Shown piece by piece: positions 5,655 through 59,700 of a stretch of DNA of 64,000 bases. This stretch comes from Dictyophora rubrovolvata (lineage: Eukaryota; Basidiomycota; Agaricomycetes; Phallales; Phallaceae). The position numbers were made by a program, and so were the translations under genes. The stretch lies in contig CP114121.1 in NCBI GenBank assembly GCA_029959195.1, positions 1,116,001-1,180,000 of the forward strand, written 5' to 3'. Each line of letters starts with the position of its first letter. Position 1 is the first letter of the stretch. A model generated the notes under the pieces. The model was not told the DNA's origin, did not search any database, and worked only from the letters and a program-made list of their open reading frames with translations.

Positions 5655-8054
5655 TCAATGAGGGCGAGTGCCATTCGTCGTAGCCGTATGTGACGATGGG
5701 AAGACGGGCGGAGGACGTATTATTGAATTGTCCTTCGGCGGCTTGACACGAAATTCGCCAACAAGGCATATATGACTAAGACCATTTCAGTCAAATGAAC
5801 TAAATTAACCGGGTTCGAAATAAGAAAACACGTACTCTGATGGGAAATGTGCATTCGGGAACCCAACAACTTTTGATAAATATGACTTGTCCACCTCCCC
5901 TAACACCGAAGTGATGGCAAGTGTAGGGGTAGAATACCAAATATAGTCAATCGCACCCTGGAAAGTTGGTGTATGATTAGTCATCGAAAGCTCGCCAATG
6001 CCAGCATAAATGCTTTTAAGATTTAAACGGTGTTTCAGCCCGTCCGACGTGTATTTGCCATATACGTGAGACATAAAGTCAGGATGATCCGACGGCACTG
6101 TTCCGTTGGCAAGAAAATCGTAGACTCCGCTGTCGGGAAGAGAATTGAAGTCTCCACAAACAATTGTTGGAATTTTCGACCCATCAGTGTACATAGGAGG
6201 AGGGGAGCTATTTGGATCGTCAGATAACCGCGGTGGTAATTTTGCAAATCGGTCCGATATTTTCTGCAATTCGTCCATGAGTAAAGCCGCCTGGACAAGT
6301 TTGACATCTCGATACTCCGCGTCCCAGTAAATGTGCACGTTGGCAATAATAAGCCGTGAACCCGTCGCCCGACTTTCCAATAGTGTTACAACGGCAATGT
6401 GATCCTTAGTGAACACTCGATTGAACATGTCGTCTGTTTTCTTAAAGTCGGGACGTTGTAGGGCGATTTGGTTGAACTCAATGAGTAGATTTTCAACGAG
6501 CTGGTATCTGTATTACAAACATAAATACAGCTCAAAGGAGGGAGAAAAAGGTACTTATTGCTTACTTGCTCGCTTTGTAGAAAGTTGCGCACCCGTCTAC
6601 TCGCCGCCGTTCAGCTTCACCCATCGTACGAGCACGCGATTTTGGCCAATGGACACCTTCATAGTCATGTGGGGAGAGATTCCGTATAAAGTAATCCTCA
6701 TACTGTCCAACCTCCACTTCCTGAAGACACAAAAAATCGGCATCGTAATTCATTATTTCCGTCAGAATAAGGTCTTTCCGGTAATCCCATGCCAATGCCC
6801 AGCTGGGCGTGTAACCATATATATGCGTAGTGGCCGACCGTTCGCATAAAATGTTATACGATAGCAAGGTGAAAACTTCTGACAATGGATCGTTGTCGTA
6901 TGCCTTTCTTTCTGCCTCGGATTGAAGCATACGCCATTGCCGCTCTGGAGGAGGCGATGGAACCGGACAGGAATCTCGAAGATAAGAGATCAAACTCGAG
7001 GTACCATCTTTCTGTAAGGTGTTCCGTAACGTAGCCTCCAAGGGGTTACCTTCCAATCCAAGCATTTCCAGCTGATGTAAGCTACCAAGTTCATGAGGGA
7101 GCGTTGTAATATGATTGTCGAAGAGATAAAGTTCTCGAAGAAGAGTGAGCATGCCTAACTCTGGGGGTACAGAGGTTAGATCATTTCCAGAAAGATCTAG
7201 AAGGATTAATTGGCGCAACCGAGAGATTTCGGGTGGAATGAATGAAATAGAATTGTGGTTGAGATACAGGACGGTAAGATATGAAAAACGGAATAGGTTT
7301 AGGGATAAGTTCTTCAAACGAATTCCACCAAGATCAAGGGTCGTCCACGTCGACTCCTGCTGTTTGCGAATGTTCAATGGTTTTAGTCTTTGCGCGGGCG
7401 CAAGTGAAGACGTCGAGGCAGAGGGGGTGTGTCCATTTACGGGACGTTCTGCAATCGAGACGGCGGATGACGAACCTGGTGAAGCTTGTTTATCTGACCG
7501 GGGAGAGCCTGTAGCGTCGGAAGCCGTATCCGGAGGTAGCTGTGATATTGGCGGTTGTAGTTTGGCATTGGGATTGGTAATTGGAATGGGAGCTTTGGCA
7601 GAATTTCGGGTAGCCATTGCAGATGCACGAGCACGATGATGCGGATTGCTTGCTTGTCGACATAACTTAAGAAAGACAATACAAAAGGAAGGAGTCAGTG
7701 GCAAGAAGTACAAACCATAAATCCACAGCAGTGGAAAAACGAAGAGCCAGACAAAAGCATGAGTTATTTTGGGCTTACCTCTGCTTTCAACAGCTGAGTC
7801 TGCCAGTGATGGCTCAGCGGAGGCTGGGAAGGGGAGCCATTCTGGATCATGTTGACCTGCTGCGAGCTCTGCGTCGGCGATGGCAATGGGAAGACTTGAT
7901 GGATTGAATTGTGGTGTTGGTGGTGGATTGAAGGTGGCGGGGCGGGAGGCGGGACAGAAGGAGGAGCACCATTGACATAAGGATTGTACGCAGACGACCT
8001 CGACCACAGCGACTGGTCGTGTTTCGGTGAGCTCGCTGGAGGAGGATAATACAT
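5655..8054 (-). CDS. CCR4: CCR4 deadenylase (LRR + EEP nuclease)
   Basis: Catalytic poly(A)-shortening subunit of the CCR4-NOT complex, acting on cytoplasmic mRNA. Four exons fit: 7779..8054, 6566..7665, 5836..6507 and 5655..5775. The N-terminus is rich in Pro/Gln/His. Next come leucine-rich repeats (for example LTVLYLNHNSISFIP, LDLSGNDLTSVPPEL, LYLFDNHITTLPHEL). The endonuclease/exonuclease/phosphatase domain follows, with LLSYNILCE, CLQEVE, IVCGDFNSLPDSGVYDF and, after the last intron, FPSDHICLVGEF. The LRR plus EEP order separates CCR4 from other EEP nucleases. The open frame runs past the last exon into an intron, so the ending SEYVFSYFEPG is not the real C-terminus; the spliced end reads NGTRPH. 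It shares a 163-base gap with the divergent gene at 8218. Confidence 0.95.
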
Positions 8055-8217
8055 ATTATATTTTTTATTATTTTTGATCTTTTTTATCGGACTTTATGTT
8101 CAGCTGGCGTTCATTTGGGGAGGGAGAGAAGGACGGATTCAAACTCCGATAGATCTCGCTCCGCCGGCCGATAATCCGCCACCCACTGCTTCACTGCAGG
8201 ACGTGTGCGAAGGCCCG

Positions 8218-13829: not shown

Positions 13830-16458
13830 AAGGTCTTCATCCCTTTTCGTACCTCCTATGCATTATCTAGTTCAGTCGGCAATGGGGAGCCTCTGTACAC
13901 ATTTTGAATAAACATTTTTGTTACAAATGGTGCTTGTTGAGGTGAATCTAAACTAGACAAAATCTGGAAAATGATTGATCCAACAAAACAAAGCGAACGA
14001 ACGACACACAATTCACATTGAGCTAGAAGTCTGAAGATAGCGCAGACGGAGTTTCGTTGGATGGCTCCCTGACATAATCCCAAGTCTCCGGCAAATCTTC
14101 AAGGTGCTTGATTCCGATTTGAAGGTACTTTTCAAGGTGCCGCTATAGGGACTCTGGATAGTCAGCGGAGATGAGGTCTGGGTCCAGAGCCAAGTTCAGG
14201 TCCTCCAGATCAAAGAGCAACCACTCCAGCAGTAGACCAACAAATGGTTCAAAGGCGCGAGAGAGGGTGTCTCTAGGTACTTTTGATTGTTGATCTACTT
14301 GTGATTGTTGTCTCTTTAGCACTTGGTCTTGTAATTTGAGGTCCTGAACAAACACACTCCTCACTGCAAGCTGCTCCAGCACACGAGATTGCAGATAAGA
14401 CCAATAATGCTCCTCGATGGGAGAGAATGTGGCGTCATGGAATTCCATAGCGCGCAACACAGCCGAAAATAGGACCCACACAAATGACTCTAAGTCGTCG
14501 ACAGCTGAATGAGGAACCTACCTATTCGTGAGCATGGCAGTTATCAGCCGACGAGACATGTATGGGGGCGTCCCCTATATATTGAGGTATCTGAGTACTG
14601 AGTGAATACCGAGTTCAAAATACGATGCACCGAGCGCTGCTTCGCGACCTCTCATTCCATCGCACCGCTAGATCGCCATCCGAAATGAACCCAGTACATT
14701 TGTCAAAGTATTTTTCAAGAATATCCTCCGTCAAAATATTTTTGAATCTAAATCAAAAGTTTATATATCTCAGAGTATTAGAGTATTGTGATGAACACAT
14801 ACCCTTCGATCCTGTCCCGTTTTTCGGGCGTTTCCATCAAAAGCACATTCCCACCGCTGACATCCCGATGAAGCCAGCCTTTTTCAAATATGACCCAATA
14901 GCCTGAAAGACAATATTGAGAGCTTAACGATTTGATAACAATAAGCGAGCGAAACCAACCTATCATAGCATGCAGAATGGCTTGAAGTAATTCCTTAAAA
15001 TCTTTTGCTTTGTAGAGTGGCTTCTCTTGTGTTTGAATGAGTAACCGAACATGCACGCGATGCTCGGGTCCTTTATTCTTATCCTCTTTTTGCTGGCTTG
15101 AGCCCTGAGAGGCAGTGATAGTTATGTTAGAGCTAGATTTCCACAGCCTCAACGGAATTGCGTTGTCTGGAAAAAACCAGGCTGTATCAGACTTGATAGC
15201 CGAAGCGGTATTGTCCCGCTGTATTGTGACTGGAAAAGAGCGTAAAACCGTTGGCACGCCAAATTTACTGCTTAGGTTTTCAAACACTTTCTCCTCTTGT
15301 TGTTCGCGGGACAGAATCGGCCAAGAGTCTTTCAAGATTAACGTGTTATAGCGACAAGGCGAATCAAAGACAGGCAAGTCGCATGGGCGGACTCTATCCG
15401 GTGAGGTTTTGGGTGACGCCGATGAGGTCTCGGGTGCCGGGCGAGCGTTAGCCTTCTCTGCCAGACGAGCCGATCTTCGAATTTCAGAGGACTGCGTTTG
15501 ACTCTCTGGGATGGCCGCTGGTGCCTTGCTGGGGGTACCGGTGTACTCATGCAGACCGTACACTACAATGCCGCTCTGAGAATCATCTGTCGTACTATAT
15601 TATCATATTGTTGTCAACCAAGATGAAAAAAATGAATCATACCCGTCTGAGCAGTACCAGCCTTGCCATTGGTGATAACGTCAACCCGTGTCTGCCGACC
15701 TACAATGGAGATGCGACGGAAGATATTATGATAAAATGAAAATGTCCCTTCCTCTCCAAGGTAGCACGTGGTATTATTGCAAGTCATATCAAACCCAGCG
15801 CTCCATCTATATTTGCAACTCCATCATATTCGTGCCATGTCCCGTATAAACTGCCTTTGGCCGTCATCAGTTTGAATATTGGTCTTAGAGGATAAACATA
15901 GCCAAGCGGGCGCGAACAATCCAAAGGAGACGCTGGCTGCTTTCTGCTCATAGAAGATGATGAGAACAAAACGGCTTCTTTGAGCATCAAAGATACTGCG
16001 TGCATAAGTTGCACCCTGCTCCACCATACTTGTATATTGACCCTTGACTTCAGCGCAGAGCTCAATGTCCATCCAAGACGCGCTCTCTTTGTGCGCAGGT
16101 GGTACTCGTGCCACGATGTCTAGCTTTAGGGAAGCGTCTTTGCCAGTACCTTCGTATACCTCGAATAGAACGTCCTTATATATGCTTCCTTCCATCAATT
16201 TGTGACCTTCCAATGATTCCTTAACGATATTGAGACGTTTGACGAAAGAAGCATAGTGATCGCATTCGTCCCCTGACTTTGGAAGCGGGGATTCGCTGAA
16301 CTTGTTAATACAGTTTTCAATTGCTTTTTCAAGATTTTGTTCAGGAGACGTATTGAAGATTTTGTCGAGCAACTGATCACTTTGGTAGATACGGCCGGAA
16401 AGCTCACTAGCGCTCATCTTTCATTGCCTGCTTCAAGTTCTGCTGTCCTGCTGGTGAG
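13830..16458 (-). pseudogene. FunK1 fungal-type kinase copy A, broken
   Basis: Homologous to copy B over nearly its whole length, including the 3' flank down to about 13830. Shared blocks include EGHKLMEGSIYKDVLFEVY, MDIELCAEVKGQYTSM, ATYARSIFDAQRSR, GLHEYTG, GWLHRDVSGGNVLLME and LSRAFEPFVGLLLEWL. Homology to copy B begins only at the segment encoding GQQNLKQAMKDE (about 16458), so the first roughly 35 residues are missing. In-frame stops relative to copy B are seen after FIRDMARI (a 3-base insertion) and in the C-terminal tail after DYPESL. It lies head-to-head with the queuine transferase; its lost 5' end abuts that gene's promoter. Confidence 0.85.
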
Positions 16459-29196: not shown

Positions 29197-31686
29197 ATGA
29201 CCTCTGAAACTCCCAAAGGGAACAAGGTTTTCAATTCTTCCTCGTTAAATCAAACGCCACTCGGGCGTAGCTCGAGTAGCCAACAACATTCCTCAGCAGC
29301 AGGACAGCAGAACCTGAAGCAGGCAATGAAAGATGAGCTTTTCGGCCGTGTCTACCAAAGTAATCAGTTGCTCGACAAAATCTTCAACACGTCTCTCCCA
29401 CAAGATCTCGGAAAGGTAACTCGGGACTGTATTAACAAGTTTAAAGGATCCCCGCTTCCAAAGTCGGGGGACGAACGCGATCACTATTCTTCTTTCGTCA
29501 AACGTCTCAATGTCGTTAAGAAATCATTGGAAGGTCACAAATTGATGGAAGGAAGCATCTATAAGGACGTTCTATTCGAGGTATACGATGAACAGATGAA
29601 AGAAGGTACCGGCAAAGACGCTCCCCTAAAGCCAGACATCGTGGCACGAGTACCATCCGCAAACAAAGAGAGCGCGTCTTGGATGGACATTGAGCTTTGC
29701 GCTGAAGTCAAGGGTCAATACACAAGTATGGTGGCGCAGGGTGCAACTTATGCACGCAGCATCTTTGATGCTCAAAGAAGCCGTTATTTCGTTCTCATCA
29801 TCTTCTATGAGCAGAAAGCAACCAGCGTCTCCTTTGGATTGTTCACGCCCGCTTGGCTATGTTTATCCTCTAAGACCAATATTCAAACTGATGACGGCCA
29901 AAGGCAGTTTATACGAGACATGGCACGGATATGGAGTTGCAAATATAGATGGAGCGCTGGGTTTGATATGACTTGCAATAATACCACGTGCTACCTTGGA
30001 GAGGAAGGGACATTTTCCCTTCATCATAACATATTTCACCGTATCTCCATTGTAGGACGGCAGACACGGGTTGACATTATCACCAATGGTACTGCTCAGA
30101 CGGGTATGATTCATTTTTTTCATCTTGGTTGACAACAATATAATAATATAGTACGACAGATAATTCTCACAACGGCATTGTAGTGTATGGTCTGCATGAG
30201 TACACTCCCAGCAAAGTATCAGCCACCACCCCAGAGAGTCAAACGCAGTCATCTGGAATCCGAAGATCGGCTCGTCTTATAGCAAAGGAAAACGCTCGGC
30301 TGGCATCAGAGACCTCCTCAGCGCCACTCAAAACCTCTCCGCATATAGTCCGCCCATGTGACTTGCCTGTTTTTCATTCGCCTCCTCACTATAACAAGTT
30401 AATCTTGAAAGACTCTTGGCCGATTCTTTCCCGCGAACAACAAGAGGAGAAAGTGTTTGAAAAACTGGGCAGTAAATTTGGCGTGCCAACAGTGTTAAGC
30501 TCTTTTCCGGTCATAATACAGCGGGACAACGCTTCGGCTGTCAAATCTGATACAGCATGGTTTTTTCCAGATAACGCAGAGAAGTTCAAGCTGTGGAACT
30601 CTAGCTCTAACAATGCCTCTCAGGGCTCAAGTCAGCAAGGAGAGGACAAGAATACAGGACCTGAGCATCGCGTGCATGTTCGCTTACTCATACAAACACA
30701 AGGGAAGCCGCTTTACAAAGCAAAAGGTCCGAAGGAATTACTCCAAGCCATTTTACATGCCATGATAGGTCAGTTTCACTCCCTTATTGTTACCAAATCA
30801 CCCCAAATTCAAACCGAATTTTAGGCTATTGGGTAATATTCAAGAACGGCTGGCTTCATCGGGATGTCAGCGGTGGGAATGTGCTTTTGATGGAAACGCC
30901 CGAAAAACGTGACAGGATCGAAGGGTATGTGTTCATCGCAATACTTTGGGATATATGAAAACTCCTATTCAGATTTGAAGATATTTTGACTGAGGATATT
31001 GTTGAAAAACACTTTGACAAATGTACTGGGTTTATCTCAGATGGTGATTTAGCGGTGCGATGGGATGAAATTGACCGAGAGATCGCGAAACAGCGCTCGG
31101 TGCGTCGTATTTTGAACTTAACAACCACCCGGTGCTCAGATATCTCAATGTACAGGGAACACCCCCATATATGTCTTGTCGACTGATATCCGCCATGCTC
31201 ACGAATAGGCAGGTTCCTCATTCAGCCGTTGACGACCTCGAGTCATTTGTGTGGGTCCTATTTTCGGCTATATTACACACTATGGAATTTCGCGAAGCCC
31301 CATTTTCTCAGATTGAGCTGCACTATTGGTCTTGTCTCCAATCTAGCAACCTTACACAGCTTGGACTGAGGGGTGCGTTCGTCGAGCAACTCGTTTCACA
31401 AAACAAGGCACTGAGGTCTAATCAACAATCAAAAGCAATCTCTGGTGAAATCCTCTCCCGCGCCTTTAAACCATTTGTTGGTCTGCTGCTGGAATGGTTG
31501 CGCTTTGCTCGTGACCTGAATGACCTGGACCTGGACCTCATTTCCACCGACTATCCCAAGTCTTTACAACCGCACCTTAAAAAGTACCTTGCGATCGGAA
31601 TTACACATCTTAAAGGGCTGCCGGATACTTGGGATTATGCTAAGGAACCACCTAACGAAACTTCATCTGCGCTGTCTTCTAGCTGA
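29197..31686 (+). CDS. FunK1 fungal-type protein kinase, copy B (intact)
   Basis: A 757-residue protein from five exons: 29197..30103, 30160..30768, 30825..30924, 30973..31099 and 31156..31686. The N-terminal half holds the family block YARSIFDAQRSRYFVLII, GLFTPAWLCLSS and MTCNNTTCYLG. The C-terminal half is the kinase: catalytic loop HRDVSGGNVLLME, a DFG-equivalent GFISDGDLA and GTPPYMS in place of APE. The tail has SRAFKPFVGLLLEWL. FunK1 is an expanded, poorly understood kinase family of multicellular basidiomycetes. Two introns needed the second possible AG (tacgacag at 30159; tacag at 31155) to keep the frame. All family blocks are in frame, unlike copies A and C. Whether it is an active kinase is not shown; HRD is kept, DFG is not. 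Confidence 0.9.
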
Positions 31687-40250: not shown

Positions 40251-40934
40251 ATGTCTGATGACGGCGGTGATGGTGGCGGCTATGATTATGACGATGGAGG
40301 GTGCGCTCTCCTCAATCACCTAAAATCCTTCGCCACCTTGCTAATCCCCTCTTTTCGACAGTTTCCAGGAATCACATTTTGTACTTGCCTTTTACCTTCT
40401 TCCTTCACAATTCAATTGTGTTGACTTCCACGGATGATCAACTCTCTAGGAAGAAGCCGAGTTTGCCAATCCTGAAGAGCAAGAAGAACAAAATGGAGAA
40501 ACCGCACACGTGAACGGCGATGCTCATATGAACGGTCATTCTGGACATGACCATCAAGGAGTTAATGGTACAGGTGGAGGAGAGACGGTCTCAGTTGCTC
40601 CTGTTGCTCCTGTTCCAGAACGACAGCCGAATAAAGTTCGCGTAACGACACCTTATTTGACGAAATATGAGCGGGCACGGGTGCTGGGTACGAGAGCTTT
40701 GCAAATAAGGTAATGTCAAGGCACTGTCACGTCGGTACTTAACAAAAGGTTTCTTATGCCGTTTTGTTTTATAGCATGAACGCCCCAGTCCTTGTACCAT
40801 TAGATGGAGAGACGGATGCCCTGCAAATTGCTATCAAAGAATTATCTCAGGGCAAAATTCCTCTAATCATACGACGTTATTTACCCGATGGAAGTTTTGA
40901 GGACTGGAGCGTCTCGGAACTTATCAGTGAATAG
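40251..40934 (+). CDS. RPO26: RNA polymerase common subunit RPB6 (RPABC2)
   Basis: Shared subunit of RNA polymerases I, II and III. Exons 40251..40300, 40362..40380, 40450..40709 and 40775..40934 give 162 residues. The acidic Gly/Asp start ([16 protein letters not shown]) and [16 protein letters not shown] lead to the conserved core: [53 protein letters not shown] and [11 protein letters not shown]. Exon 2 is only 19 bases; skipping it breaks the frame. A His/Gly/Asn-rich linker ([16 protein letters not shown]) before the core seems longer than in familiar RPB6 proteins. Confidence 0.95.
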
Positions 40935-41702
40935 CTGTATAAGCTATCGTTTTTAAAATTACAATATGTATTTTCTACATTCTATTGTTTTGACTTGTTC
41001 TAGCTTATATTTTGTTTCACCTACTTGTGCTCGAGGTTTAGACCAGCGCACTCATGTAAAATAATCCAAAAACATAAACTTTCTCGCTCATTGCTGTCTT
41101 TTGAACGTCGGGCAATGTTTAATCTACTAATTCGAACTCTAAGTACATAGAATACTGCTCTATCAAATCATAGTGTTGAACAAATATCGAACCTAACCAC
41201 ATTCAAAAAGTGCGGTACATAGTCACGACGACCTCTGCGTAACAACACGCCCTACACTCGTTTCCAAACGCTCACCACCCAAACGACCACGCAAGTCGGC
41301 TCTACAACCCAATAAGGGGAGAACACAAACTCACATTGACGAGCGGCAGGAGACAAGCTCAGATGTACGAGATAGGCGAGGATGTTATGATCCAGGTCTT
41401 CAGAATACGGAACCGTTGTTCAAATAGGCGATAGGAAGATAAAAGCCAGGTCCGATGTCGATAAATTTGTAGTCCATTACGAAAAATTTGAATACGAGGA
41501 AAATTTTGTCCATGTTTTGCCGAACGTGATCAAGGATTAAAAGAGGAAAACAGAAACAAAAATGGAAAGGATGCGAGAGAGATGCGAAATTGAAAGTGGA
41601 GATGTCGAATAAATAGAAAACCGGTTTACGGAGTTGATTGATACACGAGGGTGAGAAGGGTCACAGGTGAACTACGTGCTCTTGTTGCTTTTTCTTTTCT
41701 TC
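40935..41702. other. Convergent 3' region RPB6/HAC1
   Basis: About 770 bases without a supported gene, between two convergent stops. It probably holds the 3' untranslated regions of both, with AT-rich sequence after RPB6 and purine-rich sequence near 41520-41640. Confidence 0.5.
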
Positions 41703-43018
41703 TTAAACGACGACCAAAGAGGCTGAAATAGTCTCAGGGTCTGTAGTATGCGGTCTGAGCCCCAAACTCCAATCGCACTTGCCGCTACTACTCTCCACGA
41801 CGGTACTTTCATCTAGAACAGATGCAAGTAAATCTTGAAACTCTTCGCTATTTACTGTCGGCCTATTAACCGTATCGGGTAAAAGATCGAACAGTTGATC
41901 CATCTCCATGGCCATCTCGATATCGTCCTTTAAACCTAGACCGAGACATTCTTCCGACATGGACCCGGAAGGTAAGTCTAAGGGAATCAGACTCGGGGAG
42001 GCGGTCGGGGAGGTTTCCGCCCGACATTGTTGTAAGTCCTTGTCATGGCCAAGAGTAGATAGGCTACGAGACGACGGCGTTGAGAGGGGGTTGTTTGATG
42101 AGCTAGAGGTGTTGGTTGACAACATTTGAGAGAACCAATGTTCGATCCTGTTCTCAGACGACGAGTGACTATCGCCGAAGGTCTCTTGGAGTAGGATATA
42201 CGGCGCATCGAGATCGAAGGTGGACAACGCCGGAGAATGGATGGATCCATCCGCTGCAGGGATGCCGCTGGAGGAGCAGCGACAGACGCCACCCGTGCTA
42301 GGTGGCGAATGGAACCATCATTCGAAGCCGGTTGGTTGTCCACTGTAGGATGCGACGATGCGACAGATAAGGGAGTTGGAGGGAAGGCAATGGGAGCGTT
42401 GATGAACACGGGAAATGTGGTGGTAGGAGGGTCGGATTTAGGATCAGGAGATGGGGAGGATGGGGGTTTGGAGGCGGAAAAGGAAGAAGGAAGGCCCTGG
42501 GATTGAAGAGCTTTAACGACTGCTTCCCATCCTTGTTCAAGGGACTTTACACTGCGAACAAGAAAGTCGAAAAATGAGCATATGGATCTGGATAAAATAG
42601 ATGGATAGAGATAGATATGAACCTACCGCTCTTTTAATTCTGCGTTCTCTTTATCTTTCTCGGCGTTATCTCTCCGCTCACGCTCGCGTTGCAGTTCAGC
42701 GCGCAATTGTTCGTTTTCCTGTTTCAAAAGACGAACATTCTCCTCTAATTGGGAGAACTGTAATTTACGACGATCGCGAGAATTTTGGGCTGCGATTCGA
42801 TTGCGATGGGCGCGGGCCTCACGTTTCTCTTCAGGGGACGTATCAGTGCGTTGTCGCTTGCGAGGAGGTTGAGCTGTAGAAGTAGAAGGAGTAGCAGATG
42901 GGGTATCTGCACTACTCGTTGAAGCGACATGAATGGGTGAAGACACATCTGAGGCGGGTGATGGAAGGGAAAGAGAGGAGGGGTCAATGTAAGACGGTGG
43001 CGGAGTTGACTTCTTCAT
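41703..43018 (-). CDS. HAC1: HAC1/XBP1-type bZIP factor with predicted Ire1-spliced intron
   Basis: Transcription factor of the unfolded-protein response. The basic region (NRIAAQNSRDRRK) is close to XBP1/HAC1, followed by a leucine zipper (LEENVRLLKQENEQLRAEL). A conventional 75-base intron lies at 42552..42626. Downstream, the bZIP frame ends at 41987 (unspliced product 318 residues). A second, open frame carries the acidic domain (EMDQLFDLLPD, EEFQDLLASVLDES) and ends at 41703. Removing 42257..42297 (41 bases) joins the two frames to give 399 residues. The ends of that segment lie after the third base of two hairpin loops, as Ire1 requires. The gene symbol rests on family features; basidiomycete homologues are also called CIB1 or HXL1. 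Confidence 0.88.
42257..42297 (-). other. Predicted 41-base Ire1 unconventional intron
   Basis: Hairpin 1: stem CGCCACC/GGTGGCG around the 7-base loop TAGCACG (minus strand, 42307 to 42287). Hairpin 2: stem CATCC/GGATG around the loop CTGCAGC (42264 to 42248), the same loop as in animal XBP1. Cutting after the third loop base (TAG| and CTG|) removes 41 bases, shifts the frame by two and leaves G|CA at both joins. No GT-AG pair could make this join. Confidence 0.75.
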
Positions 43019-43631
43019 CGTTAGGCGATTATGACACAAAAATGGGACTAATTCAATATGAAACAGGCGGGAAGAAAGTCGTTAAAGAAAAGAAAGGAGA
43101 AAGAGTTGATTAAGAATGGCCAGAGGAGATGGACGGATAAAAAGTTGGGCTGACGTGGCAGTCGGGCGTCTATTAAATACTACGTGTCCGATTGACCAAA
43201 AATAGATTGCACTGCAGCCAATAGCGATGCCCGATAAAGATATACGCTACCCGTGACGGTGACGGTGACGAGTCCTGTGTTTATGGTCCACGTCACCCGC
43301 AGACATTGTTTAATATAATTATACTTGGTCGGACCGGTGCAGAAATTACAGCGATTGTATTGTATTGAGGGCCTGTGCCTCCGGTGCAGCAGTGCTGAAA
43401 CGAAATCACTTTGAACAATAATTGGCGGCCCGGGCAGTAATGTCAACTTGGAATTATTCACCGTTCTGTTCCTCAAATAGCATATAATGTGCAGTTGTCA
43501 AATGTGTAGTAAAATGCGCTCGCCTATTAGTAGATACGTGCAATGAGAGATTACAACTTGGAGGGTACTGATAAATATAGCAATTGCGTATAGGGAATAT
43601 TAGACAGCATAATATTTTAAAGCAAACGAAA
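43019..43631. other. Intergenic region upstream of HAC1
   Basis: Promoter of HAC1 and 3' side of the zinc-finger gene, both on the minus strand. It contains the two UPRE-like sites and a GGTGAC tandem run near 43258-43270. No gene supported. Confidence 0.5.
43151..43295. promoter_or_regulatory. Two UPRE-like sites upstream of HAC1
   Basis: TGACGTGG occurs at 43151-43158 on the plus strand and at 43288-43295 on the minus strand, about 133-277 bases upstream of the HAC1 start. TGACGTG(G/A) is the element bound by HAC1/XBP1-class factors, so autoregulation is plausible. Confidence 0.55.
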
Positions 43632-44805
43632 TCATCTTCGCCTTTTATTGCTCTTGTAAGCTAATGGCAGCTTTCCTGATTCTTCAGCTTCGTTAAATCG
43701 TCGTTTCCAAATCGCATACCCAACCGTCGGTCCATCTCCAGCCCGAACAGCGGGTAAATCATCTTGTCTCGGGATATCAAAGTGGGGACTTGGCGAGCGT
43801 GCCATCCGTGCCACAGCTCGAACCAATTGTCCATCAATGGTCTTGGAAATATCTATTCGAGCAAAGGCAGACTTGGGTGCGTCATCGTCACTTTCAATGT
43901 CTTCGAGCACGGCTGCGATATCTTCACTCAGTTTTTCCATCTTTCGCGCGGCTTTGGCGGCAATAAACGAGGGGTTAGGTGTAACCATCGGAACGTCCGT
44001 GAATGCATTGATCGTGTGGTCGGGAAACGGAGGACTGGGCACTTGCTTTTTCTTGGAAAGAGGCACAATCGTCGACTGTGGAAGATTCTCAACATCATTG
44101 TCGTGCAACGTTGAAATATGGTGAGCTAGTCGGTCGACATTTTGCGCTTTGTGTTTACATTCTACACCAGAGTACCAGCACGGAAAGGTATTCTCGTCTT
44201 TTGTTTCAGTTACGTGAAGTGAATTTGGAACCTACTTGATACTGGACACCTGAGTTTGAGAGAATTAAAATGGATCTCCATAAAGTGCTCGATAAGCTCG
44301 TGTGGATCGTGAAATGTTTTTTTGTTTTGACATGCATCATAACGGCAGCGATAAAGCTTTGACGACTTTAAGACAACCAGGTCAACAACAAAGAAAATGA
44401 ACAAAAACATCGTCACTTTACCATTGGTGATTTTAATGCTTCTGAGTGTATCGTCTGACAATGTCGCTTTTGTACATGCTAAAATTCTTGTTCGAGCTCA
44501 GGTGTCACTACAACGTCATCATCGATTCACACCTTTCTCAAATTCTCCAAACTTCCTAAGAGCGCAAAGCAATCTTGCCAACCACAGACAATAGGTCTAT
44601 TGATCTTCTCGAACACTTTTGACAACCTCGTCTCGTCAGATAGACTGGCTTGTTCTGAATGTTCATGCTCAATCACCGCGCGCACCACACAATCATCAGA
44701 ACCCGACTTCAGAGTGGCTGACCGCGACTCTGATAACGCCATATTAGCGAGATATTCACGCGTCGCGAACGGTGATCGCGCGTATAATGACAGATAATTG
44801 GCCAT
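43632..44805 (-). CDS. C2H2 zinc-finger protein, unassigned
   Basis: After splicing three introns the frame shows three C2H2-like fingers. They are CGWQDCFALLGSLENLRKH with VQKRH, CRYDACQNKKTFHDPHELIEH with FMEIH, and CPVSSRECKHKAQNVDRLAHH with ISTLH. A helical segment (AARKMEKLSEDIAAVLEDIE) and a basic end (YKSNKRRR) follow. The N-terminus (from MANYLSLYARSPFATREYLA) has no known domain. C-x4-C spacing is typical of fungal DNA- or RNA-binding fingers. I cannot name the orthologue. Divergent from the copper transporter, with 198 bases between starts. Confidence 0.75.
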
Positions 44806-56797: not shown

Positions 56798-59700
56798 ATG
56801 AGTAATACCACCGTGCATATATTTTTATGGTACACTGGGCATATTTCACCTTGTTTATTACGAAAGGGCTTCCCTCCTTTTTCCCGGCGTCATGTCACAA
56901 AACCACACTAACGGATTAACGAGGGGTGTCTCTATAGTAGGGCACTGGGATGGATGATAATGGAAGAAGAAGAAGAAGAAGAAAAGGAAAAAAACCTGCG
57001 ACGGCATGGTCTCCCTCTCAGTATTAATTATTACGTCATTTGCATTCAATGGACTACACATCAAAAGTCTTAATTTTCTATCTGCATCATGGTTTTCTCT
57101 CCTTTTTTTTTTTCTTTCGGTTTCCAAAATGTATCTTGTTTTGTTTAGTTGTACAATATTTTTTTTCTCCCTCCGCGCGACAACGACATTCTTTCTCTTT
57201 CTCCTGTTTTTCTCTCTCTTTTTTCCTGGTTAATACTTGGACGCGTACTATGTAGGGCGGTTTTTTTAGACATTTTTCCACGCGACTTTTGTGTTGTGTT
57301 ACAGCAGTAAAATTACTATGCTATTGTACGATATACATTTCTCGTTTCATGTTTATGCTTCACGACCTCACTTGATTAATTAATTGTAATAATACATAAT
57401 AAACAGTAAACGTGGATTCCAAGTGTAATTTTTTTTTAGTGTTGTAAGATTCCAGGAAACACCGTTCGTGGAGCGGAGAATAGTATGACATACATATGTA
57501 TATGTGCTTATCACCAACTGCACTGTGATGCATCCTAGTAATTGACATAAGTAAACATGCCTTTTTTTGAAAAAAATGAGGGGATGTTAAGTAAGTAAAG
57601 TATGAAGGATGATAACACGGGCTAAGTGAATCAATACTAATTCATTCAGTCATTAATGGTGTGCGGTATTTATTTAATTCGAGTTCGATGGACCGGTTGG
57701 CAGTATTAATTCGCCGGAGCTTCTTCTACTATATACCACCAGTTGTTGTATAGGACCGCTCATATAAAAATTGAGATAGTTCTGTACCAAAACAAACCAG
57801 AATCAAGATCTTTGGGCGGACCAGATTCCACGATCATCGGAAGAGTTTTTGTGGCCGGAGGGAAGAGAACACTTTCAATTTCGGAGACACGGTGGGAATC
57901 GAACGCGGGCAGCGCACACTTTTAATTGTCTCGCGCATTTTTTATTACCGGCGTGAACATGAAAAAAAAAAAAAAAGAGAAAGAAAGAAAGGAAAAGCGC
58001 GTGTGCTTGGGTGCGCTTGTGCCATGGCGTTTGAGTTTTTTTTTCTTTCTTTCATGATGTACTTACATAGTACGTAAGTGTGCAAGTCTGAGGAAGAAAC
58101 GTTGATATTGTGAATTTGGAGTTATTGACAAGCATGCTGAAGATGAGTGTGCGTGCGCTCGATATGACTTGAGACCAGTGTACTAGGTGACCGGAGAGAG
58201 ATACTTTTTTGTTATTGTTGCAGTCCGCCAGGACAAGTCTTCTATTGCCAGTGCCGGAAGGGGTCTTCGTTGTAACTGTAACTGTACTTACAATCGGAAA
58301 TACGAGTACTGAACGCGAACACAAGTGGACGCCGGCAGATAGATGACTTGCCATACTTTTTCATGTGCCCGGAGACTTATCGTTTGTAAGAGAACCGCAC
58401 GTCCGAGAGTTAAGCTGCTTAACATAGTTACTGGTGAACGTTAATGGCCGGTGAACATGCCAAACTCGAAACTTAGCGCCTGCCGCCATACAATACAAGA
58501 TACGTGTACCTGTCTGGAAGGGGGCTACCCGGCCGACAGAAATCTCCGAAATACGACAAACGTTGCAAAGGACTACATATGTACATCCTTACTCCGAATA
58601 AAATTTCATTCTTCTCGGTTTGTCACTGACAAGTGTGAAAAAAGAAACCACCCCGATGTGCCGGCCGATGGTGATTTCCGTTGCCTCACGGTTCAGAATG
58701 TGACGTCGCGCGTGGGCCAATATGTCTTTCCGTTCGGTCTGCAATTTACTTACCATAACAAAGCTCCGGATCACCTTAGCGATCGCGATAAGTTATCGTA
58801 CTTAAGTACATCCGTCGTTGCCGTTGCCATGTCGAGCAGGCGTTTCGAAAGGGAACGTCTTAACTGCCTGAAGGGCCGAGAAAATAGACGCCCGACTGTA
58901 AAGGATTTGGATATTTACTCCCGTGGCGTTTGTAACACGCTGACTGGCGGTGCAAGTGCCATGAATTGTACATTCTTTTTGAGAAGTCGGGTTCGTTCAA
59001 GAAGTCATGAAAACAAAGAGGAACAATCCTTACCACGAGGCTTCATGGCTATCTTATTTCCCATAATTACATTATTACTATTCAAATTCTTTTGCCCGGG
59101 ACGGTCTGGCGGCGATGCCAATGAAATCGTACGTTGGCTCCGTTGGATTCTTACTACACAGTAAGCATGCTGAATCGGTATGTTTTCTGTGTATGTGACG
59201 TGATTTATTATGGATCACTTTATAAGTAAAATTTACCCGAGAACAACAGGACTTGCGAATCTGCGTAGCATACTTTCGCCAAAGGCGTTCAAGTGCTGTT
59301 TAAAGATCGACCGATATCCAATCTGATACGTAAGCAGAATTATTTTTCAAAACAAAAACTTTAACTTTCGAGTGCTTCCTAATAGTAATTTTAGAATTGT
59401 CTTTGCGTGTTCTTATGGCATCTACATATCCGGCTGTAGTCAAGTCATGAGACTCTCCTAAAGACAGAGTTCCGACGCGTTCATTATTTGGATTAAAGAA
59501 GGTACCCTAAGGAAATGCACGAGATTTTCATTCATGTATGACTGAACCCTTTTTTTTTAAGCTTTGAACTTTTTCACCTCGTTCAAATTGGCCCTTACTG
59601 AGATGTGCACAGCAAGAACCCTTTACCGTCTGGCTATAATTCGCACGCCCGAGGTTGAACTCCAGTCTTGATCCATCTTTCCCGCAATATGACGCGTATG

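Follow-up and report, generated by a model that had tools for sequence, protein, structure and literature searches.

A candidate Ire1-type intron, probably of 41 nt, in a HAC1-like bZIP gene of the basidiomycete Dictyophora rubrovolvata

The closest described relatives of the element reported here are the introns that Ire1 excises from HAC1-type mRNAs, for which we relied on a set of published papers (PMC3154848, PMC4101180, PMC4891664, PMC6037481, PMC4836707, PMC10688622, PMC8104961, PMC6222058, PMC6627864, PMC6592678, PMC3149027, PMC6918084, PMC5024300, PMC6116095 and PMC8071499). In these accounts, animal XBP1 and S. cerevisiae HAC1 each carry twin hairpins with 7-nt loops that are cut after the third loop base, a G, and the present gene appears to be built in the same manner. 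Intron length is not shared, however, being 26 nt in XBP1, 252 nt in S. cerevisiae HAC1 and, as proposed, 41 nt here. According to the same literature, the specificity of Ire1 is CNG'(C/A)NGN in S. cerevisiae, UG'C in S. pombe and CUG'CAG in humans (the apostrophe marks the cut). Point-mutant tests are reported to have found the S. cerevisiae enzyme specific for a motif that includes C at -3 and G at +3, and a 7-nt loop of sequence CUG'CAGC is reported to be cut in vitro by both yeast Ire1 enzymes. A published idea, as relayed by a citing paper, holds that ejection of the XBP1 intron is helped by an RNA rearrangement that has an analogue in HAC1.

Two basidiomycete precedents are described in these sources, namely HXL1 with an intron of 56 nt and cib1 with one of 65 nt. 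HXL1 of Cryptococcus neoformans is, like the present gene, a bZIP gene that combines a single ordinary intron with an unconventional one downstream of the bZIP, whose splicing swaps the C-terminus. It differs in the length of the Ire1 intron (56 nt versus 41 nt) and also in its ordinary intron, which is described as 55 nt long and located in the bZIP's upstream region, whereas the one found here measures 75 nt and lies directly after the bZIP match. Both HXL1 borders are described as CAG, which is another difference from the present gene. The cib1 gene of Ustilago maydis is likewise a basidiomycete HAC1 homologue, and a regulatory role has been proposed for its unspliced form. Its 65-nt intron differs from the 41 nt proposed here and is tied in a figure legend to a CNG'CNGN consensus, which the 5' loop of the present gene breaks. 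The UPRE of pit1/2, TGCCACGTCG, is reported to occur in the cib1 promoter as well, and the present gene has TGCCACGTCA.

Among the matches listed in a search of open-licence literature, judged by titles and the beginnings of abstracts, there was no HAC1 intron from an Agaricomycete. One white-rot genome paper states that no clear HAC1 orthologue was identified, yet Ire1 and the ligase were present. HAC1 is sometimes elusive in mushroom-forming fungi, and if our reading of the present locus is right, it supplies the gene together with its intron. It would also add a new basidiomycete intron length beside 56 and 65 nt, and offer a naturally occurring 5' site at odds with the rule drawn from S. 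cerevisiae Ire1. Guidance of Ire1 by RNA architecture and clamp-driven intron release would, on the same condition, become testable.

A bZIP gene with two downstream frames

The window examined here is the whole 64-kb stretch of DNA that was analysed (64,000 nt). A first-pass annotation had recognized a bZIP gene in it, which lies on the reverse strand, and this identification is upheld by Pfam, which assigns the exon 1 protein to bZIP_1 (E 1.8e-08, residues 63-118) and bZIP_2 (E 6.3e-08), each over its curated cut-off. Exon 1 of this HAC1-like gene extends from the ATG at 43018 to 42627 and, as judged from the Pfam matches and the translation, encodes both the basic region and the zipper. We take the basic region, NRIAAQNSRDRRK, to be like those of XBP1 and HAC1. 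Matches of the bZIP to PDB entries are to Jun-type chains and are generic in nature (best E 0.00046), and the matches to NCBIfam all fall far under their cut-offs. A search of Rfam over 41600-43100 returned no match. Relatives of the bZIP were also sought in two sequence collections by pattern, where 28 matches in a viral contig collection and 238 in a collection of prokaryote contigs (genome_contigs) included none that could be confirmed.

Exon 1 is followed by a 75-nt intron (42626-42552, reverse strand, GTAGGT...TTCGCAG) that, from its sequence, appears to be an ordinary spliceosomal one, and its removal keeps the frame past the bZIP match. Exon 2, in its state before any Ire1-type splicing, occupies 42551-41703. 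The frame entering this exon continues to a TGA at 41989-41987 and thus specifies a protein of 318 aa with a basic tail. A second frame is open from 42317 to a TAA at 41705-41703. Because the unspliced frame stops at the TGA and the second frame opens only at 42317, a change of frame would have to occur between these two points. The proposed unconventional intron lies about 100 codons downstream of the residues matched by bZIP_1.

Removal of 41 nt would alter both the frame and the C-terminal tail, turning the 318-aa product into one of 399 aa. The tail that is lost comprises 103 aa with 1 D/E and 20 K/R, whereas the tail that is gained comprises 184 aa with 29 D/E and 8 K/R, in agreement with the earlier description of the second frame as acidic. 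Taken together, these features suggest that the gene is probably a HAC1/HXL1/cib1-type bZIP transcription factor of the unfolded protein response with an Ire1-type intron, probably of 41 nt.

Hairpins and exon-exon pairing around the proposed intron

The first-pass annotation had based its proposal on two hairpins with 7-base loops, and we find both of them with perfect stems on the reverse strand. Hairpin 1 (42307-42287) has a stem of 7 bp and the loop TAG'CACG at 42300-42294, which would carry the 5' cut, and hairpin 2 (42264-42248) has a stem of 5 bp and the loop CTG'CAGC at 42259-42253, which would carry the 3' cut. Cutting each loop after its third base takes out the 41 nt at 42297-42257 (CACGGG...CCCTG) and leaves 400 codons including the stop, exactly as had been calculated. 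The accompanying remark that known introns of this type have lengths of 2 modulo 3 is accurate for 20, 26, 56 and 65 nt, but it does not serve as a general rule, since published lengths of 19, 252 and 379 nt differ.

The two loops stand in very different relation to the known specificities of Ire1. The 3' loop, CTG'CAGC, agrees fully with CNG'(C/A)NGN and satisfies the S. cerevisiae, S. pombe and human rules together. The 5' loop, TAG'CACG, had already been flagged as departing from CNGNNGN at positions 1 and 6, and this doubt is justified: G is present at -1 and C at +1, while C at -3 and G at +3 are both missing, such that only G'C is in place and CNG'(C/A)NGN is violated. Six CNGNNGN loops occur upstream of the 3' site in exon 2, and none of them has a stem of more than 2 bp. 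Given an off-consensus 5' loop and no better candidate, either Ire1 in this organism is less strict about the 5' site or the 5' cut is made elsewhere. Stem-loops with 7-nt loops and stems of about 5 bp can be drawn at both borders, with hairpin 2 lying outside the minimum-energy fold. Because the 5' loop lacks the consensus, we class the element as a variant that would work like a HAC1-type Ire1 intron and not as a standard member of that group.

How readily such a pair of hairpins arises by chance was evaluated with a post hoc criterion, defined once the feature had been seen. It demands a pair of 7-nt loops whose third base is G, one stem of 7 bp or more and another of 5 bp or more, at least one loop of the form CNGNNGN, and a spacing of 15-120 nt that is 2 modulo 3. 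Dinucleotide shuffling of the 368-nt region where the frames overlap never produced such a pair (0/4000), and the only place in the 64-kb window that has one, on either strand, is this locus. With the stems eased to 5 and 5 bp, the fraction of the 4000 shuffles rises to 0.00075 and the window holds three matches, two of them at this locus. Dropping the motif requirement gives a fraction of 0.00725 and 17 matches in the window.

Folding of the transcript had been recommended as a check, and its outcome divides the pair. Hairpin 1 forms in the predicted fold, with a pair probability of 0.98 for the four pairs nearest the loop and with a U.G pair that narrows the loop to 5 nt (AGCAC). Hairpin 2, in contrast, is absent from the predicted minimum-energy fold: its 3' arm is engaged with the upstream exon, which leaves the hairpin a pair probability of no more than 0.08. 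Forming it would cost 5.2 kcal/mol, or 6.9 kcal/mol if both 7-nt loops are forced. A further hairpin of 8 bp with a 6-nt loop is predicted in the middle of the intron (42284-42263).

The pairing that displaces hairpin 2 is part of an exon-exon clamp around the intron, which adds to the first-pass observation and fits the same Ire1 reading. A 5'-exon arm (42354-42307) and a 3'-exon arm (42252-42204), the latter having GGATG in common with hairpin 2, are predicted to form a rod of about 35 bp in helices of 6, 9, 4, 5, 4 and 7 bp, including the perfect 9-mer GTGGACAAC/GTTGTCCAC. Competition between hairpin 2 and the clamp resembles the rearrangement discussed for XBP1. Pairing between the 5' UTR and the intron, which S. 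cerevisiae HAC1 has, is at the random level here (-20.1 versus -20.5 +/- 3.4).

Several comparisons indicate that the predicted pairing is exceptional for this DNA. First, the 161 nt around the intron fold with a predicted energy of -69.9 kcal/mol (z -5.67), which was equaled in 0 of 200 shuffles, and the inner 89 nt give a z of -3.99. Second, the duplex of the two 60-nt flanks has an energy of -53.5 kcal/mol. When flanks of this length separated by a 41-nt gap were scanned every 20 nt on both strands, this value was attained at 2 of 6370 positions, both of which are this locus, one per strand. With 30-nt flanks the observed value, -26.6, was reached at five of 12740 positions, two representing this locus and three lying elsewhere. 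Third, none of 500 synonymous recodings of both flanks was as strong, in fold energy and duplex alike. Fourth, the GC-corrected energy lies under that of all 1596 tiled 161-nt windows (residual z -3.31, the next being -3.06), in a comparison where the clamp window was centered by hand and the tiles were set at fixed steps. Among 28 windows along the transcript, the one that begins at 42383 has a z of -3.47 and the one that begins at 42343 a z of -4.25. The only other one of the 28 below -3 covers the 5' part of exon 1 (42819-42978, reverse strand; z -3.46 from 60 shuffles), where the fold is possibly a translation-control element.

Once the 41 nt are taken out, the predicted fold retains the rod, gains two pairs and places the junction within a 9-nt loop. 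The nicked complex is computed at -74.3 and its parts, taken separately, at -53.5 and -15.1, and by this estimate the cut intron would still be held by about 6 kcal/mol. These model energies do not show ejection to be favored, and the step from uncut to ejected intron is presumed in the scheme described below.

Placing the frame change

Where the frame changes was estimated with a codon score. Its training set was 17 ORFs from other parts of the window, each running from stop to stop over 200 aa or more and together holding 4575 codons; these are ORFs and not proven genes, and they are the 20 listed minus two of the HAC1-like gene and 58445-59164. On held-out blocks, with stops ignored, the score chose the correct frame 67 times out of 80. 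For a deletion of 41 nt it places the 5' cut at 42310-42197 (90% interval), a range that includes 42297. We regard it as very likely that this module contains an Ire1-type intron, whatever its borders, and as likely that those borders are the ones defined by the hairpins, 42297-42257.

An Ire1-type intron might instead use other borders, of which three are of interest: 26 nt (CTG'TCGC, 42282), 44 nt (CAG'CGGA as the 3' loop) and 59 nt (ATG'GTTC, 42315). Each of these lengths is 2 modulo 3 and leads into the same acidic frame, and if stems of at least 3 bp are demanded on both sides, there are 12 frame-opening combinations of 15-400 nt, the 41-nt one included. The codon scores do not discriminate among the lengths (38.4 for 26 nt, 38.1 for 41 nt, 37.6 for 44 nt and 38.5 for 59 nt), the others all being within 1 unit of the value for 41 nt. 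CTG'TCGC even fits CNGNNGN, yet it has a stem of 0 bp and runs into an arm of the predicted middle hairpin, while CAG'CGGA has a stem of 3 bp and ATG'GTTC has one of three consensus bases. Hairpin 1 has the longest stem among the sites listed and is situated at the tip of the clamp. We consider other borders unlikely.

Excision of an ordinary spliceosomal intron would switch the frame equally well, and there is no shortage of possibilities, with 302 frame-opening GT/GC..AG combinations of 35-399 nt. Of the four that were scored, 42287-42169 (119 nt) reaches 36.4 and 42201-41978 (224 nt, with a branch-like CTGAT) reaches 36.7, versus 38.1 for the 41-nt deletion; a conventional-intron candidate of 65 nt has a codon score of 30.7. 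Nevertheless, a full GTRNGT donor is present in none of the 302, five of its six bases are present in 12, and no CTNAY site lies between 8 and 50 nt ahead of the AG of the 119-nt candidate. Such an intron would also leave the clamp and the hairpins unexplained, and we judge it very improbable.

We give scarcely any weight to a third explanation, in which a sequencing or assembly indel, or decay to a pseudogene, has split the frames and the hairpins are coincidental. A single base lost or gained would join the frames, and the codon scores permit this (d = 2): when deletions are placed optimally, one of 2 nt scores 40.5 and one of 41 nt scores 40.1. An error or a pseudogene predicts no RNA structure, however, yet flank pairing that is unmatched at other sampled loci is centered here, and HXL1 likewise has a frame-changing unconventional intron downstream of its bZIP. 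Programmed -1 ribosomal frameshifting stimulated by RNA structure would suit the direction of the frame change and the very stable predicted structure, but it is the least credible of these explanations, as the overlap has no in-frame X XXY YYZ slippery heptamer and ribosomes slipping ahead of the clamp would run into a stop of the acidic frame at 42320-42318, inside the clamp arm.

If the Ire1-type intron with 41-nt borders is real, unstressed cells would translate the mRNA into the 318-aa bZIP protein with its basic tail. Under ER stress, Ire1 would cut TAG'CACG on the 5' side and CTG'CAGC on the 3' side, with the loops at the tip of the exon-exon rod, and the 41-nt piece 42297-42257 would be released. 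The exon ends would be held together because the rod uses no intron sequence, and tRNA ligase would then seal them inside the 9-nt loop. The new frame would supply an acidic, Ser/Thr-rich tail of 184 residues, and the resulting 399-aa activator would probably stimulate its own promoter as well. In this scheme the Ire1 cut, its exact position on the 5' side, the ligation, the control by stress and the autoregulation are inferred, whereas the gene structure, the frames, the hairpins, the predicted clamp and the promoter motifs come from the sequence.

We also propose, tentatively and with more doubt than confidence, that Ire1 in this lineage chooses the 5' site by architecture over loop sequence, following structure-guided, relaxed rules. 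The 5' loop would have lost the C at -3 and the G at +3 and kept only G'CA. Perhaps the rod presents the loops, competes with hairpin 2 to free the 3' exon, and keeps the ends for ligation.

Promoter motifs, the unspliced tail and the surrounding region

A putative UPRE-like site, TGCCACGTCA (43160-43151, reverse strand; TGACGTGGCA on the forward strand), is located 133 nt upstream of the ATG, and a second TGACGTGG (43295-43288, same strand) is located 270 nt upstream. These are the only two copies of TGACGTGG in 64 kb. Two or more copies appear somewhere in 38 of 100 shuffles, and the only point of interest is therefore that both copies fall upstream of the HAC1-like gene. One of them is overlapped by TGCCACGT at 43153-43160, which is reported to be common to two Cib1-bound sites of U. 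maydis; its single copy in the window compares with 1.31 expected, so its mere presence is unremarkable. Judged by motif alone, the gene would thus resemble cib1 in having a UPRE motif in its own promoter, which would be consistent with autoregulation. The ORF upstream of these putative sites (43632-44231) is on the same strand as the HAC1-like gene. All 11 window matches to the Puf-type motif TGTANATA fall outside the gene.

The tail specific to the unspliced protein (42256-41989, reverse strand) has a net charge of +18, whereas 2000 synonymous recodings that preserve the spliced-frame protein give 10.7 +/- 2.4. This basic charge is only suggestive of a possible function for the unspliced protein. 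The unspliced frame stays open as long in 22% of 5000 synonymous recodings, and its openness is therefore no evidence of selection.

Elsewhere in the window, C-terminal exons at 40450-40934 on the forward strand, convergent with the HAC1-like gene, resemble RNA polymerase subunit RPB6 by eye; the last of these exons gave no Pfam match at 1e-5. At 5805-8055 on the reverse strand, LRR and Exo_endo_phos ORFs occur together, a layout that we take to be that of a CCR4-type deadenylase. Finally, two Pkinase_fungal (PF17667) ORFs, members of a family that would point to a mushroom-type fungus, are separated by about 15 kb, with one on each strand (14778-15599, reverse; 30147-30824, forward). Their N-terminal sequences are closely similar by eye, and perhaps they belong to a duplicated or mobile family.
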